Below are positions 1,940-35,364 of a DNA stretch of 35,364 nucleotides, one piece after another (within the stretch, counting starts at the first letter, position 1; every line of letters starts with the position of its first letter). Both the position numbers and the translations under genes were made by a program. The notes under the pieces are model-generated. The model was not told the DNA's origin. It did not search any database and saw only the letters and a program-made list of their open reading frames with translations. This DNA comes from Actinomycetota bacterium. Lineage in GTDB: Bacteria; Actinomycetota; Nitriliruptoria; Euzebyales; JAHELV01. The DNA lies in the NCBI GenBank assembly GCA_019347695.1, contig JAHWKT010000003.1, forward strand, positions 3,448 through 38,811. Direction: 5' to 3'.

Positions 1940-2470
1940 TGCTGATCGTACAGCTCGTCGCCGGCACCGTGGTCCTGCTGGTCACCGCCGCCGACATCGT
2001 CGTGACCACCACGTCGGTGTCCAGCGGCCGAGGTCCCCTGTCGTCCCAGGTCGCCGCGCGCGTCTGGTCGGTCGTGCTCGCAGTGCACACCTGCACACCC
2101 GGCCACCGGCTGATCCAGGTCGCGGTCTGGTGATCCTGTTCGGGATCGTCCTGACGTGGGCGTCCTGCTGAGCGTCGGCTGGGCGCTGCTGTTCAGCGCG
2201 CCGGGGGCGCTCGATGGCAGCGGCGGTGTGGGCTTCGGCCAGCGCCTGCACTTCGCCGCGACCACGGTCGCCGGGGCGTGGCACCTCGTCGCTGCAGGTG
2301 GCCGACGGCGGCTGGTGGATCGCCGAGCGGGCCTGCCCATGCGCGAGCCCGACGCCTTCGAGGCCGCCGTCGACGAGTTCGACGACCGACGTCGCGTGCT
2401 GCGCGGCTTCCTGGCCTTCGAGGGGCGGCAGTGGCCGCCCGACACCGAGCTCCAGTCGGACGCGCCCACC
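1936..2470 (+). pseudogene. Frameshifted remnant of a two-TM ion-channel-like membrane protein
   Basis: Continuous similarity-like signal jumps frame: MLIVQLVAGTVVLLVTAADIVVTTTSV..GHRLIQVA (frame of 1936), then GLVILFGIVLTWASC (frame of 1806), then VGVLLSVGWALLFSAPGALDGSG..RLHFAATTVAG..MREPDAFEAAVDEFDDRRRVLRGFLAFEGRQWPPDTELQ (frame of 2156). Confidence 0.6.
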
Positions 2471-2523
2471 GACGAGCACGCCGCGACGTCAGACAGCTAT
2501 CCGCCGGCTCTGGGCGGCCGACG

Positions 2524-4053
2524 TCAGCCCGTCAGGCCACGGAGTCCCCGGATCAGTGCCCGGCGCTGGGTCCCGAGCCACGACCGGAGCTCGTCGGCGT
2601 CGAGGGCGTCGGGAGCAGCGTCGGCGAGCAGTCGCGCGATCTCGTCGTCGGTCGTCGCCAGCTCGTCGGAGATCTCCCCGCCGGACGAGGTGGCGACGTC
2701 GAGCAGCGCCGCGTCGCGCTCCTTCCACAGCTGCAGGAACGCAGACTCCTCGGACGCGTCGATCGCCGGCGCGCGTCCGATCGCCTCAGCCAGCTCGTCG
2801 GCGTTCTCGTCGAGCACATCGGCGACTGCCGCGCGGTCGAGCTCCCCGACGTCCACGGCGGTGGCGAGCAGGAACACCTCGTCGATGAGCTGGCTGGCGA
2901 TCTCCTGGCGTAGCACGGCGGTGGTCGTCTCGAAGCCGTCGAGGTCCAGGTGCTCCACGTACGACCGCGCGACCTCCAGCCCGAGCGGTTCCACCGCCTC
3001 GGTCGCCGCCTGATGGGCGCGCTGGACTGTCGTGTCCACCTGGGCACCCTCGCGGACCGCTTCGAGCACCGCGTCGGTCCACGTGCGGAACAGCTCGGTG
3101 GCGGCGTCGGTCTCGATGACCTCGCCGGCGGTCACGGCGATGAGTGGTCCGAGCTCGGCCGAGATCTGCTCGAGCTCGGCCCGCGGTGCCTCGAGCGGCT
3201 CGCCTCCACCTGCGTCGACGACGGTGGCGTACTCCTCCACCACCGCAACGTGGTCGCGGAGCAGCCGCACGACCGCGCGGCGATCGACGGCTTGCACGCT
3301 GCGCAATCGGCCGATCGTCTCCGCCACCTGGCCAGCCGCCGACTCGGCGAGCACGCGCGCCCCCTCGACGTCGCCGTCGGTCACCACCTGGTACGCCAGG
3401 AGCAGCTCGGCAAACGTCAGGCGAGCGAACGCGTCCGCGATCTCCTGGCGGACCACCGCGCCTTCGGCGTCGAAGGCGTCGCTGTCGGCGAGTGCCGACG
3501 CCAACGGCAGCGCGAGGTCGGCGGTGGTCGTCTCCACCGCGGACGTGAGCTGCTCGTAGCGCTGCGATGGCGACGGCGTGGCGGTTGGCTCGGGCGACGC
3601 CGTCTCGCTCGCGACGTCACCGGTGACGGTGATCGGCCGGCGAACGGTCCGCAGCTTGGGCATCCCGGTCGCCGTGGCCATGACCTCGTACTCGCCGGGC
3701 GCGACGGGCAGCGACCCGACGTCGAGCTCGAAGCGCACCTGCTGGCCGGGAACCAGCGCCACACGGTGAGGATCATGCGCGAACGCCCGGCGCTCGGCCC
3801 AACGGTAGACCTCGACGCCGTTGGTCAGGAACGCCACGTCGCCGCGCTGTGTCGTGTCGAAGGTCAGCAGTGCCCGCTGGTCGCTGACGTTGCGCACCCG
3901 CAGGTCGAACGTGGCGGGTTCTCCGGTGATCAGCGGATCCGGCGAGGTCACGATCTCGAGCTGCAGGCGGTCGGTCGAGGTCTCCGCCAACGGGGGCGAC
4001 GAGTTGCCGCAGGCGGTCACGAGGACCGCCATCACGGCGACGAGCATGGTCAC
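2524..4053 (-). CDS. Putative lipoprotein with a BsuPI-like domain and a duplicated helical module
   Basis: N-terminal VTMLVAVMAVLVTAC lipobox; beta-rich segment LQLEIVTSPDPLITGEPATFDLRVRNVSDQ..VPGQQVRFELDVGSLPVAPGEYEVMATA resembles BsuPI; two helical repeats follow. ORF-track start at 4464 is overextended into the SDR gene. Confidence 0.75.
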   Translation of the reverse strand: MTMLVAVMAVLVTACGNSSPPLAETSTDRLQLEIVTSPDPLITGEPATFDLRVRNVSDQRALLTFDTTQRGDVAFLTNGVEVYRWAERRAFAHDPHRVALVPGQQVRFELDVGSLPVAPGEYEVMATATGMPKLRTVRRPITVTGDVASETASPEPTATPSPSQRYEQLTSAVETTTADLALPLASALADSDAFDAEGAVVRQEIADAFARLTFAELLLAYQVVTDGDVEGARVLAESAAGQVAETIGRLRSVQAVDRRAVVRLLRDHVAVVEEYATVVDAGGGEPLEAPRAELEQISAELGPLIAVTAGEVIETDAATELFRTWTDAVLEAVREGAQVDTTVQRAHQAATEAVEPLGLEVARSYVEHLDLDGFETTTAVLRQEIASQLIDEVFLLATAVDVGELDRAAVADVLDENADELAEAIGRAPAIDASEESAFLQLWKERDAALLDVATSSGGEISDELATTDDEIARLLADAAPDALDADELRSWLGTQRRALIRGLRGLTG

Positions 4054-30046: not shown

Positions 30047-30301
30047 GTCCTGTCCGTCGGTCACGGGCCCCGGTCGTCGCGGGGTCGTGTCGACGCACGG
30101 TACCGCCACGACATCGACTGCCTGCACCGGCAATACCCGTCGGCTCGTGGGATATGTCCGTACGAGAAGTACGCGACGCTGGCGAAGCGCACGCGTCGTG
30201 CACAATGCCGTGGCAGCGACGGTGCTCGCCGGCCGGCCGCAGCTGCACTGTTCTTCTCGGTCGACCACACAACCGACACGCCGACGCCGCCAGGAGACGA
30301 T

Positions 30302-32077
30302 GTGGACAGGATCGACGGGTTCGCGCCGATCGGCGCGTACGGCGTGATCGGCGATGGTCGGGTGGCGGCGCTCGTTGCCGCCGACGGCGCCATCGATTGG
30401 CTGTGCCTACCGGACCTGTCCGGGCCGGCGGTGTTCGCGGCGCTGCTCGACCCCGAACGCGGCGGCAGCTTCGAGCTGCGACCCCGCGACGAGTTCACCG
30501 CGCAGCGGCGGTACCTGCCGGACACCAACGTGTTGGAGACCACCTTCACGACCGCCGACGGTGTCATCCGGGTCACCGACGTGCTGACGCTGCAGGAGGG
30601 TCGTCTGCTGCCGTGGGTCGAACTGGTGCGCCGCGTCGAGGGCGTCAGCGGGCGTGTCGACGTCGCTGTGCGCGTGCGCCCGCGGTTCGACTTCGGCCGC
30701 CTGGCGACGCGCTGGAGGACCGAGCGGGGGTATCCCGTCGCCCGCGGCGGCTCGACCGCGGTGTCGTTGGTGACCGACGGCGACTGCGAGCTGCGCTGCG
30801 AGGGCGACACGCTGACGACGACCGTGTCGTGTGCGGAGGGGTCGCAGCGGCTGGTGTGCCTTGTCGGCGTGGACGACGAGCCGCTGGTCTTCCCGCACCT
30901 CGACCAGATCGGTACGCGCATCGGGCGCACGGCCGACTTCTGGCGGCAGCGCGCCTCGGCGATGCGATACGACGGACCGTATCGCGACGCGGTGGTACGC
31001 AGCGGGCTCGCGCTGCAGCTTTTGATCTCGCAGTCATCTGGAGCGATCGCGGCGGCCGCGACGATGGCGCTGCCCGAGCGCATCGGCGGCTCGGCGAACT
31101 TCGACTACCGCTACCAGTGGGTGCGGGACGCGTCGTTCATCCTCGACGCGTTCATGGGCATCGGGTTCCAGGCGCAGGCACACGCGTCGTTCACGGCGCT
31201 GCAGCGCGCGACCAACCGGACCCATCCTCGCCTGCAGCCCATGTTCCGGCTCGACGGCGACCCGCGACTGCCCGACGAGACCCTGGACCTGCGTGGCTAC
31301 CGGGACTCCCGGCCCGTGCGGATCGGCAACGGCGCTGCCGGCCAGCTGCAGCTGGGCAACTTCGGCGACCTGCTCGACACGACATGGCGCTACACCAACG
31401 ACGGGCACGTGCTCGACACGAGCACCGCCCGCAGGGTCGCCGACGTGGCGAACCTGGTCACCGCACTGTGGACGTGCGACGACTCGGGAATCTGGGAGCT
31501 GCGGCGCTCGCAGCGTCCGTACACCAGCTCCAAGATGGCCTGCTGGCTGACCCTCGACCGCGCGATCACGTTGGCCGAGGACGACCATGTGCCCAAGGCG
31601 CGCGCGGAGCACTGGCGCCGCGAGCGCGACCGCATCCACCGGTTCGTCGAGCAGCACTGCTGGTCGCAGCGACGCGGCAGCTACATCTTCTACGCCGACG
31701 CCGACGACGCGCTGGACGCGAGCGTCCTGTTGGCCGCCCGGATGGGCTATCCCGCCAGCACCGACCGGCTGGAGGCCACGATCGATGCGATCCGGTCGGA
31801 GCTCGGTGCCGGTCCGTTCGTCTACCGCTACAGCGGCACGCAGTCCAGCGAGGGCGCCTTCCTGGCGTGCTCGTTCTGGCTGGTCGAGGCGCTCGCGCTC
31901 GTCGACAAGGTCGAGGAGGCGACCGAGCTGATGGACCAGCTGATCGGCGCGGGCAGCGACCTCGGGCTGTTCTCCGAGGAGATCGATCCCACGACCGGGA
32001 CCTTGCTGGGCAACTACCCGCAGGGCCTGTCGCACCTGGCGCTGATCAACGCCGCACTGGTGCTCCAGCGCGCATGA
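30302..32077 (+). CDS. Glycoside hydrolase family 15 protein (glucoamylase/trehalase-like)
   Basis: RIDGFAPIGAYGVIGDGRVAALVAADGAIDWLCLPDLSGPAVFAALLDPERGG; FDYRYQWVRDASFILDAFMGIGF; EGAFLACSFWLVEALAL. Confidence 0.92.
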   Translation: MDRIDGFAPIGAYGVIGDGRVAALVAADGAIDWLCLPDLSGPAVFAALLDPERGGSFELRPRDEFTAQRRYLPDTNVLETTFTTADGVIRVTDVLTLQEGRLLPWVELVRRVEGVSGRVDVAVRVRPRFDFGRLATRWRTERGYPVARGGSTAVSLVTDGDCELRCEGDTLTTTVSCAEGSQRLVCLVGVDDEPLVFPHLDQIGTRIGRTADFWRQRASAMRYDGPYRDAVVRSGLALQLLISQSSGAIAAAATMALPERIGGSANFDYRYQWVRDASFILDAFMGIGFQAQAHASFTALQRATNRTHPRLQPMFRLDGDPRLPDETLDLRGYRDSRPVRIGNGAAGQLQLGNFGDLLDTTWRYTNDGHVLDTSTARRVADVANLVTALWTCDDSGIWELRRSQRPYTSSKMACWLTLDRAITLAEDDHVPKARAEHWRRERDRIHRFVEQHCWSQRRGSYIFYADADDALDASVLLAARMGYPASTDRLEATIDAIRSELGAGPFVYRYSGTQSSEGAFLACSFWLVEALALVDKVEEATELMDQLIGAGSDLGLFSEEIDPTTGTLLGNYPQGLSHLALINAALVLQRA

Positions 32078-32315: not shown

Positions 32316-33353
32316 ATGCTGACGACTTTCGCATCCGGGACGCAGCCACGCGAACACCTCCGGGTTCGCTCGGTGCGCCGTGGCACGCGTGTGTCGGCCG
32401 TGGTCGCGAGCTCGCTGGCGCTGACGGGGTGCAGCCTCAGCGGGACGCTGGCGCCCCGCGGTCCCGATGCGCAGATCGCGGCCAACATCTGGTGGTACAT
32501 GCTCTGGCTGAGCGCGGCGATCTTCGTCGGGTGGCTGGCGTTGTTCGTCGTCGCGATGGTCCGCCGGCCCACCGGGGAGATCGACGAGGAGCACGAGCAG
32601 CGGCTGCATCGGCGCTTCATCGTCGGCGGCGGCATCGTGCTGCCGTCGATCGCGTTCGCCTCGCTGTTCGTGATCGACCTGCTCGGCATCGCCGCGCTCC
32701 CGCAGGGCGACGAGGTCGTCGTCGACGCGGTCGGCTACCAGTTCTGGTGGGAGTTCGCCTACGAGCATCCGGAGCTCGTGACGGCCAACGAGCTGTACAT
32801 CCCGACCGACACCGACGTGCAGGTGCGGCTGCGCACCGAGGATGTGATCCACAGCTTCTGGGTGCCGCAGCTGTCGGGCAAGCGCGACATGGTCCCCGGC
32901 CGCACCAACGTGCTGACGCTGCACGCCACCGAGCCGGGCCGCTACCTGGGCGAGTGCACCGAGTTCTGCGGTGTGCAGCACGCCAACATGCGCTTCGAGG
33001 TGGTCGCCGTGCCGCCTGACGAGTACCAGCAGTGGCTCGACGACATGGTCGCGCCGGCGGCCGAGCCCCAGACCGAGGACCAGCGACGCGGCTACGACGC
33101 GTTCATGACCGCCAGCTGCGCGGCCTGCCACGTGATCCGCGGCACGCCAGCGGACGGACGGGCCGGGCCGGATCTCACGCACTTCGCGCAACGCCGTTGG
33201 CTCGGGGCCGGCGCAGCTCCCAACGACCGCGGTCACCTCGGCGGGTGGGTGGTCAACCCACAGTCGATCAAGCCTGGCAGCACCATGCCACCGGTCGAGC
33301 TCGACGCCGAGGACCTGCCGGTGCTGCTCGACTACCTCGAGAGTCTGGAGTAG
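32316..33353 (+). CDS. ctaC: Cytochrome c oxidase subunit II with C-terminal cytochrome c domain
   Basis: Lipobox-like LALTGC; two TM helices; CuA ligands DVIHSFWVP and GECTEFCGVQHANM; CAACH heme c motif and GSTMPP. Confidence 0.93.
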   Translation: MLTTFASGTQPREHLRVRSVRRGTRVSAVVASSLALTGCSLSGTLAPRGPDAQIAANIWWYMLWLSAAIFVGWLALFVVAMVRRPTGEIDEEHEQRLHRRFIVGGGIVLPSIAFASLFVIDLLGIAALPQGDEVVVDAVGYQFWWEFAYEHPELVTANELYIPTDTDVQVRLRTEDVIHSFWVPQLSGKRDMVPGRTNVLTLHATEPGRYLGECTEFCGVQHANMRFEVVAVPPDEYQQWLDDMVAPAAEPQTEDQRRGYDAFMTASCAACHVIRGTPADGRAGPDLTHFAQRRWLGAGAAPNDRGHLGGWVVNPQSIKPGSTMPPVELDAEDLPVLLDYLESLE

Positions 33354-33355
33354 GC

Positions 33356-35287
33356 ATGTCGATCCTGGACCCGGCGACCGACTCCCCCAGACAGGTCAAG
33401 GAGCGCCTGGTCGAGACGTGGTCCGACGATCCCGGCACGCCAGGGTTCTTCTCGACCGTCGATCACAAACGGGTCGGTCACCGCTACCTGGTGACGTCGT
33501 TCGTGTTCTTCCTCATCGGCGGGGTCGAGGCACTGATCATGCGCGCGCAGCTGACGGGCCCGGACGCCAACCTCGTGTCGCCCGAGCTGTACAACCGCAT
33601 GCTCACCATGCACGGCACCACGATGTTCTTCCTGTTCCTGGGCACGATCATCGCCGCGTGGGGCAACTACATCATCCCGCTGGCCATCGGCGCGCGCGAC
33701 ATGGCGTATCCCCGCATGAACGCGCTGAGCTACTGGGTCTTCCTGTTCGCCGGCATCTTCCTGTACCTCAGCTTCTTCGTCGGCGCGATCCCGGACGGCG
33801 GCTGGTTCGCCTACGTCCCGTTGACCACGGAGTACTCCGAGGGCCTGGCGATGGACTTCTGGGCGCTGGGAGTGGTGTTCGTCGGCATCTCCAGCACCGT
33901 CGGCGCCATCAACTTCATCGTCACGACCTTCAAGATGCGCGCGCCCGGGATGACCATGAGCCGCCTGCCACTGGTGGTGTGGTCAACGTTGACGACCTCG
34001 TTCATGATCCTGCTGTCGTTCCCGGCGATCACCCTGGCGCCGCTGCTGATGGCCTTCGACCGCATCATCGACACCCACTTCTTCGACGCCGCGCTCGGCG
34101 GCGACCCGCTGCTGTGGCAACATCTGTTCTGGTTCTGGGGTCACCCGATCGTCTACATCGTGTTCCTTCCACCGATCGGCTGGCTGTACATGATCATCCC
34201 GACGTTCACCGGGCGACCGATCGCCGGGTACACCTGGGCGGTCGCGGCGACGGTGGCGACGGGCTTCATCAGCTTCGGCGTGTGGGTGCATCACATGTTC
34301 GCCACCGGCCTACCCGACGTGACCGCCAGCTTCTTCTCCGTCGCCTCACTGGGGGTGTCGTTCCCCACCGCGGTGGCGTTCTTCGTGTTCACCGCCACGC
34401 TGTGGACGGCCCGGCGCATCCGCTGGACCGCCGCGATGCTGTGGGCCGTCGGCGCGCTGGTCAGCTTCGTCATCGGCGGCATCAGCGGCGTGATGGTCGC
34501 GGTCATGCCGTTCGACTGGCAGGCGCACGACACCTACTTCATCGTCGCCCATCTGCACTACGTGCTGGTCGCCGGTAACGTGCTGCCGATGTTCGCGGCC
34601 TTCTACTACTGGCTGCCGAAGGTGACCGGCTGGATGCTCGACGAGCGCCTGGGCAAGTACAGCTTCTGGGTGACCGTCGTCGGACTGCACCTGCTTTTCT
34701 TCCCGCAGCACTGGCTCGGGCTGGTGGGCATGCCGCGTCGGGTCTACACCTACCCCGAGGGCCTGGGGTGGGAGACCGCGAACCTGGTGTCGACGGTCGG
34801 CGCCGCCCTGTTCGCGCTCGGCGTGCTGATCTCGATCGTCAACTTCTTCTGGTCGCGCCGGCGTCATGTCGCAGCCGGATCCAACCCGTGGGGCGCCGGC
34901 ACCCTGGAGTGGGCGACCACCTCGCCGGTCGCGACCTACAACTTCGCGCAGATCCCCACCGTCCGTGACCGCTATCCGCTGTGGGCGGACGACGGGGAGG
35001 TGGTCGCCGATCCCGTCGGCATCGACCCGCAGCCGGGCGGTGTGGTGCTGGCTCCCGAGGAGGAGCATCACGAGACGCTGGAGACCGTCGGGCTCGACGC
35101 GCGCTACGGCGGCGTGCTCGAGATGCCCGGCCCGTCGTACTGGCCGCTGTGGACGGCGGCCAGCACCTTCCTGGCGTTCTTCGGCTTCCTGATCCACAAC
35201 GCCGCCACACTCGGGATCGGCATCGCCGCGGTGATCGTCTCGCTGCTCCGCTGGCACGCCGGCCACATCACCGGAGAGGACCACTGA
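33356..35287 (+). CDS. ctaD: Heme-copper oxidase subunit I (cytochrome c oxidase-like)
   Basis: MLTMHGTTMFFLF, WGNYIIPLAIGARDMAYPRMNALSYW, FWGHPIVYIVFLP, VWVHHMF, HDTYFIVAHLHYVLVAG; follows ctaC directly. Confidence 0.93.
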   Translation: MSILDPATDSPRQVKERLVETWSDDPGTPGFFSTVDHKRVGHRYLVTSFVFFLIGGVEALIMRAQLTGPDANLVSPELYNRMLTMHGTTMFFLFLGTIIAAWGNYIIPLAIGARDMAYPRMNALSYWVFLFAGIFLYLSFFVGAIPDGGWFAYVPLTTEYSEGLAMDFWALGVVFVGISSTVGAINFIVTTFKMRAPGMTMSRLPLVVWSTLTTSFMILLSFPAITLAPLLMAFDRIIDTHFFDAALGGDPLLWQHLFWFWGHPIVYIVFLPPIGWLYMIIPTFTGRPIAGYTWAVAATVATGFISFGVWVHHMFATGLPDVTASFFSVASLGVSFPTAVAFFVFTATLWTARRIRWTAAMLWAVGALVSFVIGGISGVMVAVMPFDWQAHDTYFIVAHLHYVLVAGNVLPMFAAFYYWLPKVTGWMLDERLGKYSFWVTVVGLHLLFFPQHWLGLVGMPRRVYTYPEGLGWETANLVSTVGAALFALGVLISIVNFFWSRRRHVAAGSNPWGAGTLEWATTSPVATYNFAQIPTVRDRYPLWADDGEVVADPVGIDPQPGGVVLAPEEEHHETLETVGLDARYGGVLEMPGPSYWPLWTAASTFLAFFGFLIHNAATLGIGIAAVIVSLLRWHAGHITGEDH

Positions 35288-35364
35288 TGTCCGCCCCTCG
35301 TGCCTCGAGTAGCGCCAGCGGTAGGCACACGCCACGTGCCTCGAGTAGCGCCAGCGGTAGGCAC
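35287..35364 (+). CDS. Start of a further ORF coupled to subunit I, truncated by the window edge (oxidase subunit III would be the expected neighbour; not verifiable)
   Basis: TGATG overlap of the ctaD stop with ATG 35287; MSAPRASSSASGRHTPRASSSASGRH remains open. Confidence 0.55.
   Translation, partial: MSAPRASSSASGRHTPRASSSASGRH
35300..35364. repeat. 29-nt direct repeat, two copies, 36-bp period
   Basis: gtgcctcgagtagcgccagcggtaggcac at 35300-35328 and 35336-35364, spacer acgccac. Confidence 0.95.

Follow-up and report, generated by a model that had tools for sequence, protein, structure and literature searches.

Apparent single loss of the K-channel and recurrent loss of Glu286 in a clade of bacterial A-type caa3 oxidases

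A 35,364-nucleotide stretch of DNA from an Actinomycetota bacterium, hereafter called the window, encodes an oxidase that lacks both the K-channel lysine (K362) and the glutamate of the HPEVY motif (E286). The gene COX1 (CtaD-like; 33356..35287, on the forward strand like all window features given below) specifies a protein of 643 amino acids, the catalytic subunit I of an A-type caa3 oxidase according to PF00115 (489.8 bits), TIGR02891 and an AlphaFold model searched with Foldseek. This protein belongs to a clade whose members all lack K362.

Residues are numbered according to R. sphaeroides COX1, with the PDB 1m56 sequence as the reference. Profile and MAFFT alignments both place residue 265 of the window COX1 at E286 and residue 341 at K362. 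The initial annotation, made from the sequence, had read an isoleucine in place of the HPEVY glutamate and an alanine at the K-channel lysine, and both readings were exact. HPIVY occupies residues 263-267 (CAC CCG ATC GTC TAC, 34142-34156), with Ile265 (ATC, 34148..34150) at the position of E286, and Ala341 (GCG, 34376..34378) stands at the position of K362. The glutamate of the A1-type XGHPEV motif is therefore absent, Ile265 taking its place, and the A2-type YSHPXV motif is absent too: the sequence is WGHPIV, with the Trp-Gly already noted where Tyr-Ser would precede HP. Because helices VI and VIII align to R. sphaeroides COX1 without nearby gaps, neither alignment offers a Glu, Tyr-Ser or Lys at a shifted position in the window COX1. 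An alignment shift as the cause of HPIVY and Ala341 was ruled out, as separate alignments gave the same result and the motifs on either side contain no gaps. The histidine ligands, cross-link tyrosine and D-channel entrance residues had been described as kept, and the alignment to R. sphaeroides COX1 confirmed this: the six haem/CuB histidines (H102, H284, H333, H334, H419 and H421) are conserved, as are the cross-link tyrosine Y288 (Tyr267, TAC, 34154..34156; kept in all 187 aligned sequences), N121, D132 and N139 within GNYIIPLAIGARDMAYPRMN (33662..33721), and N207.

Judged by sequence and predicted fold, the window COX1 is assigned to the A-family haem-copper O2 reductases. Its TIGR02891 CtaD score (665.6 bits) is slightly under the cut-off of 670.75, and its sequence match is 458.6 bits to A-type compared with 57.6 bits to B-type oxidases. 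The AlphaFold model (pLDDT 90.9), which is of the protein only, with no haem and no water, had its best Foldseek match in the caa3 oxidase of T. thermophilus (2yev_A; rmsd 1.9 A, TM 0.86 normalised by query length), and every one of the 50 matches listed was an A-type oxidase. The structure-based comparison and the tree described below, in which the protein is nested among A1-type enzymes, thus bear out the earlier view that it is A-like despite HPIVY. Sequence, fold, D-channel and the cross-link tyrosine ruled out a B-type or NOR identity. Upstream, COX2 (32316..33353; PF00116, PF00034, TIGR02866 162.9 bits) has a lipoprotein-like start, two transmembrane helices, a CuA domain and a C-terminal cytochrome c. 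The contig also carries COX3, a small membrane protein with no Pfam match and CtaG, which lie 3' of COX1 outside the window. With CuA and a fused cytochrome c on COX2, and with COX3 and CtaG present, the genes form a complete caa3 operon together with the window COX1.

The 187 COX1 proteins aligned were taken from named genomes, from class- and phylum-wide genome searches and from plasmids. They were sampled by similarity to the window protein or to a relative lacking K362 (hereafter K-less), and the counts of K loss apply to such a sample. K362 is missing in 81 of the 187 rows, where Q, A, I, V, L or T takes its place. Two maximum-likelihood trees of 95 and 92 rows were built without the two trait columns, and in both every K-less row fell into a single clade (support 100/100), which nests among the A1-type caa3 oxidases and has members from Actinomycetota and Pseudomonadota. 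Loss of K362 maps to one change on the tree and is reconstructed as ancestral to the whole clade, with loss of E286 later and recurrent. The divergent branch of the superfamily that the initial annotation had suggested is thus this clade, apparently a large bacterial branch with no known characterisation.

The loss extends to subunit II. The glutamate at the mouth of the K-channel (Glu101 of R. sphaeroides subunit II) is described, on the basis of earlier mutation work, as essential for K-channel transport (PMC9687966). In the window COX2 this position is a valine (32622..32624). The entrance glutamate is present in 83/83 operons that retain K362 and in 0/79 readable K-less operons; because the rows share ancestry, the Fisher value of 3e-48 merely illustrates a clean split, and the joint pattern of subunit II Glu and K362 is essentially one event on the tree. 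Position 365, the polar residue beneath K362, holds Asn or Ser in 106/106 K362-containing rows. Among the K-less rows it is Ala, Val or Cys in 30/30 of one group, hereafter grade A (Asn or Ser in 0/30), and Ser in 12/51 of the other, hereafter clade B. The residues at these positions indicate that the K-channel was lost on both subunits in the K-less clade.

Grade A, which includes the window, retains the canonical D-channel asparagines, and 15 of its 30 rows have lost the acid at 286. Isoleucine is found there in the genus of the window, in the relative L004 and in Salsipaludibacter, valine or leucine in L167 and L170, and tryptophan in L161. Tryptophan also occurs, as HPWVY, on Pseudomonadota plasmids of Mesorhizobium, Caballeronia, Paraburkholderia, Methylocella and Methylocystis. 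At 362, Salsipaludibacter albus (HPIVY) has Gln and plasmid p1 of Methylocella tundrae (HPWVY) has Ala. The acid losses amount to four changes on the tree, all within the K-less clade (the Pseudomonadota group being two rows), so that E286 appears to have been lost at least four times (to I, V/L, W and W), in no case with the A2 Tyr-Ser motif. All 15 of these E-less rows have N139, N207 and T211, 14 have D132 and 13 have N121. Among the K362-containing rows E286 is present in 92 of 106, and the remaining 14 carry the A2 Tyr-Ser motif. Clade B, the sister subclade, has kept E286 and rebuilt its D-channel with new glutamates: position 286 is always E or D, N207E and G198E are each found in 51/51 rows, Glu is found at 117 in 47/51, and N121 is replaced in 51/51. 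The oxidases with this rebuilt D-channel are L096-L131 and L173-L187.

Recurrence in close relatives was seen as well. The sister genomes L089 and L090 share the Ile/Ala pair in genes 91% and 88% identical to that of the window, and the further relative L004 has Ile and Thr at positions 286 and 362. Among close relatives of the window-type COX1, dN is ~0.06-0.10 and dS ~0.40-0.54 (dN/dS ~0.15-0.19), which shows that the gene is under purifying selection. A pseudogene or assembly artefact was ruled out by the presence of both losses in close relatives together with dN/dS ~0.15. The window's genome (3.48 Mb, 87.7% complete) carries on another contig a canonical second caa3 oxidase with HPEVY and VPTGVK, found by a PF00115 search. 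The genomes G028 and G029 carry an additional, distinct K-less gene. A weak COX1-like membrane protein (L003; 18.8 bits, far under the cut-off) is encoded on contig C51 of the window's genome, and a gene for a winged-helix-like regulator follows it; with so low a score, L003 was set aside.

The K-channel of R. sphaeroides is used in the reductive phase, and E286 handles chemical as well as pumped protons; mutants in E286 or K362 are nearly inactive. Natural enzymes lacking both residues must therefore hold compensations. Inspection of the alignment identified no single compensating residue in the E-less enzymes and no compensating acid shared across the E-less lineages. We infer that the window oxidase may use a different proton path, as the initial annotation had proposed. 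In the reading we favour, to which we would give an even chance, the enzyme reduces O2 with electrons from cytochrome c, takes up protons by a single D-type inlet, pumps little or not at all and acts as an auxiliary electron sink. All chemical protons would enter by the retained D-channel (D132, N139, N121, N207 and S200/S201) and would then move along a water chain linking its water cavity with the haem-copper site, with no carboxylic-acid branch point. As this branch point is missing, pumping may be weak or absent, at ~1 charge per electron rather than 2. A weakly pumping or non-pumping enzyme could go on oxidising cytochrome c at high proton-motive force, and so could serve as an auxiliary electron sink beside the canonical caa3 oxidase of the same genome.

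A possible but less probable reading is that pumping persists, gated by water and the haem propionates alone or by a lineage-specific donor that replaces E286. The D-channel asparagine ring tunes pumping in model enzymes, and its full conservation in the E-less rows could be an argument for retained pumping. Other donors can be pointed to in particular lineages. All seven aligned Pseudomonadota HPWVY proteins (L176, L177, L188-L191 and L196) have a tyrosine in helix II (FLYA; position 110 in R. sphaeroides numbering), and this Tyr110 is a possible stand-in proton donor; a further example is a helix II Glu in Salsipaludibacter (Glu116 in L007). That E286 is replaceable is known from the A2 enzymes, where Tyr-Ser takes its role (PMC8780969). 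However, no substitute is common to the four losses, and neither an acid nor a Tyr has newly appeared beside 286 in the window's lineage. The more specific proposition that pumping proceeds with neither K362 nor E286/Tyr-Ser, through a water-only gate above the intact asparagine ring, we consider doubtful; if true, the carboxylic-acid valve that is central to most pump models would be dispensable.

It is improbable that the role of the lysine has passed to an alternative K-channel of the B-type kind, with Tyr299 and Thr359 leading to Tyr288 as in ba3. In the window protein and its two sisters, positions S299 and 359 are indeed Tyr and Thr, and in B-type enzymes Thr, Ser and Tyr replace Lys, Thr and Ser, respectively (PMC3084760). 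However, the window protein, in which the D-channel is present, has A362 with T359 and Y299 and so lacks the Thr-Ser-Tyr set, which is complete in none of the rows displayed; Tyr299 is found in only 3 of the 15 E-less rows, and the subunit II entrance Glu is missing. Still further from the evidence is an NO reductase or some other superfamily member that does not reduce O2 (eNOR, sNOR or CuA-NOR), which is very unlikely: the proton channels are unusual and NOR families are often misannotated as oxidases, but NORs have Gln, Asn, Glu or Asp for the cross-link tyrosine (PMC8756737, Table A4), which is kept in the window COX1 and in 81/81 K-less rows, and the operon is of the caa3 kind with CtaG. 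Decay of the gene with neutral losses, which a canonical copy in the genome and two missing key residues might suggest, is likewise unlikely and hardly credible given dN/dS ~0.15, intact metal ligands and operon, and the same changes in sister species.

Compared with known systems, the closest are the A1-type caa3 oxidases (T. thermophilus 2yev, and CtaD of Bacillota, Chloroflexota and actinobacteria), which share with the window the fold, metal ligands, cross-link tyrosine, lower D-channel, a CuA- and cytochrome c-bearing subunit II, COX3 and CtaG; the window lacks their K362, subunit II entrance Glu and E286. In A2-type enzymes E286 is replaced at the same site, but by way of Tyr-Ser rather than the Trp-Gly of the window, and the A2 rows keep K362 (14/14); general A1 and A2 definitions are given elsewhere (PMC3084760, PMC8780969). 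B-type (ba3) enzymes share with the window the absence of the lysine and of the D-channel Glu, and HPxVY, but have a Thr-Ser-Tyr K-channel and no D-channel (PMC3084760), which the window retains. Family A enzymes without the K-channel are not new as such, because seven losses have been published for archaea (PMC8239418); those lineages are archaeal, and the parts consulted of its main text do not mention the added acid loss seen in the window. A Burkholderia cenocepacia plasmid copy (L257) has HPWVY, Ala at 362 and a fused COX1-COX3, differing from the window in its Trp at 286, its fused subunit III and its phylum. It is probably the same gene as that of the caaBAC oxidase on pC3 of strain H111 of this species, whose expression is reportedly confined to nutrient-limited conditions on surfaces (PMC11742914). 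The coxMNOP alternative oxidase of rhizobia and Pseudomonas (PMC5492768), compared by its description, resembles that of the window in being, in rhizobia, reported as a second aa3-type oxidase whose subunit II bears haem c. A full-text literature search, which had subscription papers outside its scope so that an earlier mention is possible, found no report of combined K362 and E286 loss, of the coupled subunit II Glu loss or of the Glu-rich D-channel of clade B.

How chemical and pumped protons are routed in A-type oxidases is an old open question that has mostly been probed with crippling point mutants. Evolution seems to have dispensed once with the K-channel, in both subunits at the same time, and later, at least four times, with the gating glutamate, in enzymes under selection. 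This K-less, E-less branch may serve as a natural test of which textbook parts of the proton pump matter, and its variants, together with clade B, where glutamates stand in for the asparagine gate, could let claims about the residues needed for pumping be tested directly. These observations also suggest that 'cytochrome c oxidase' annotations may hide enzymes of much lower energy yield.

The surroundings of the operon were also compared. A GH15 family (trehalase/glucoamylase-like) protein is encoded directly upstream of COX2 (30245..32077; PF00723, 181.2 bits). A GH15 gene lies directly 5' of coxB in two phyla, in the window, in L188 (a Caballeronia plasmid; 1994-3802) and in L198 (of the window's genus). 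Because L198 and L188 share the gene order GH15-coxB-ctaD-cox3 with the window's operon, GH15 is a possible partner gene of the window oxidase. Relatives of PQQ alcohol dehydrogenase, GMC oxidoreductase, sorbosone dehydrogenase-like protein, FdhF or GH15 were found at 27/69 K-less loci and 0/32 loci with K362, and within one phylum at 9/41 and 0/20, respectively; this enrichment is suggestive only, because plasmid loci were picked by similarity, flank lengths vary and the query set was drawn from K-less neighbourhoods. Next to each of the two cox operons of the window's genome lie 36-bp tandem repeats that are related to one another (35296-35364 in the window, where the copy ends in an assembly gap, and 7842-8021 in L085), and the core pattern of the repeat occurs 13 times in this genome.
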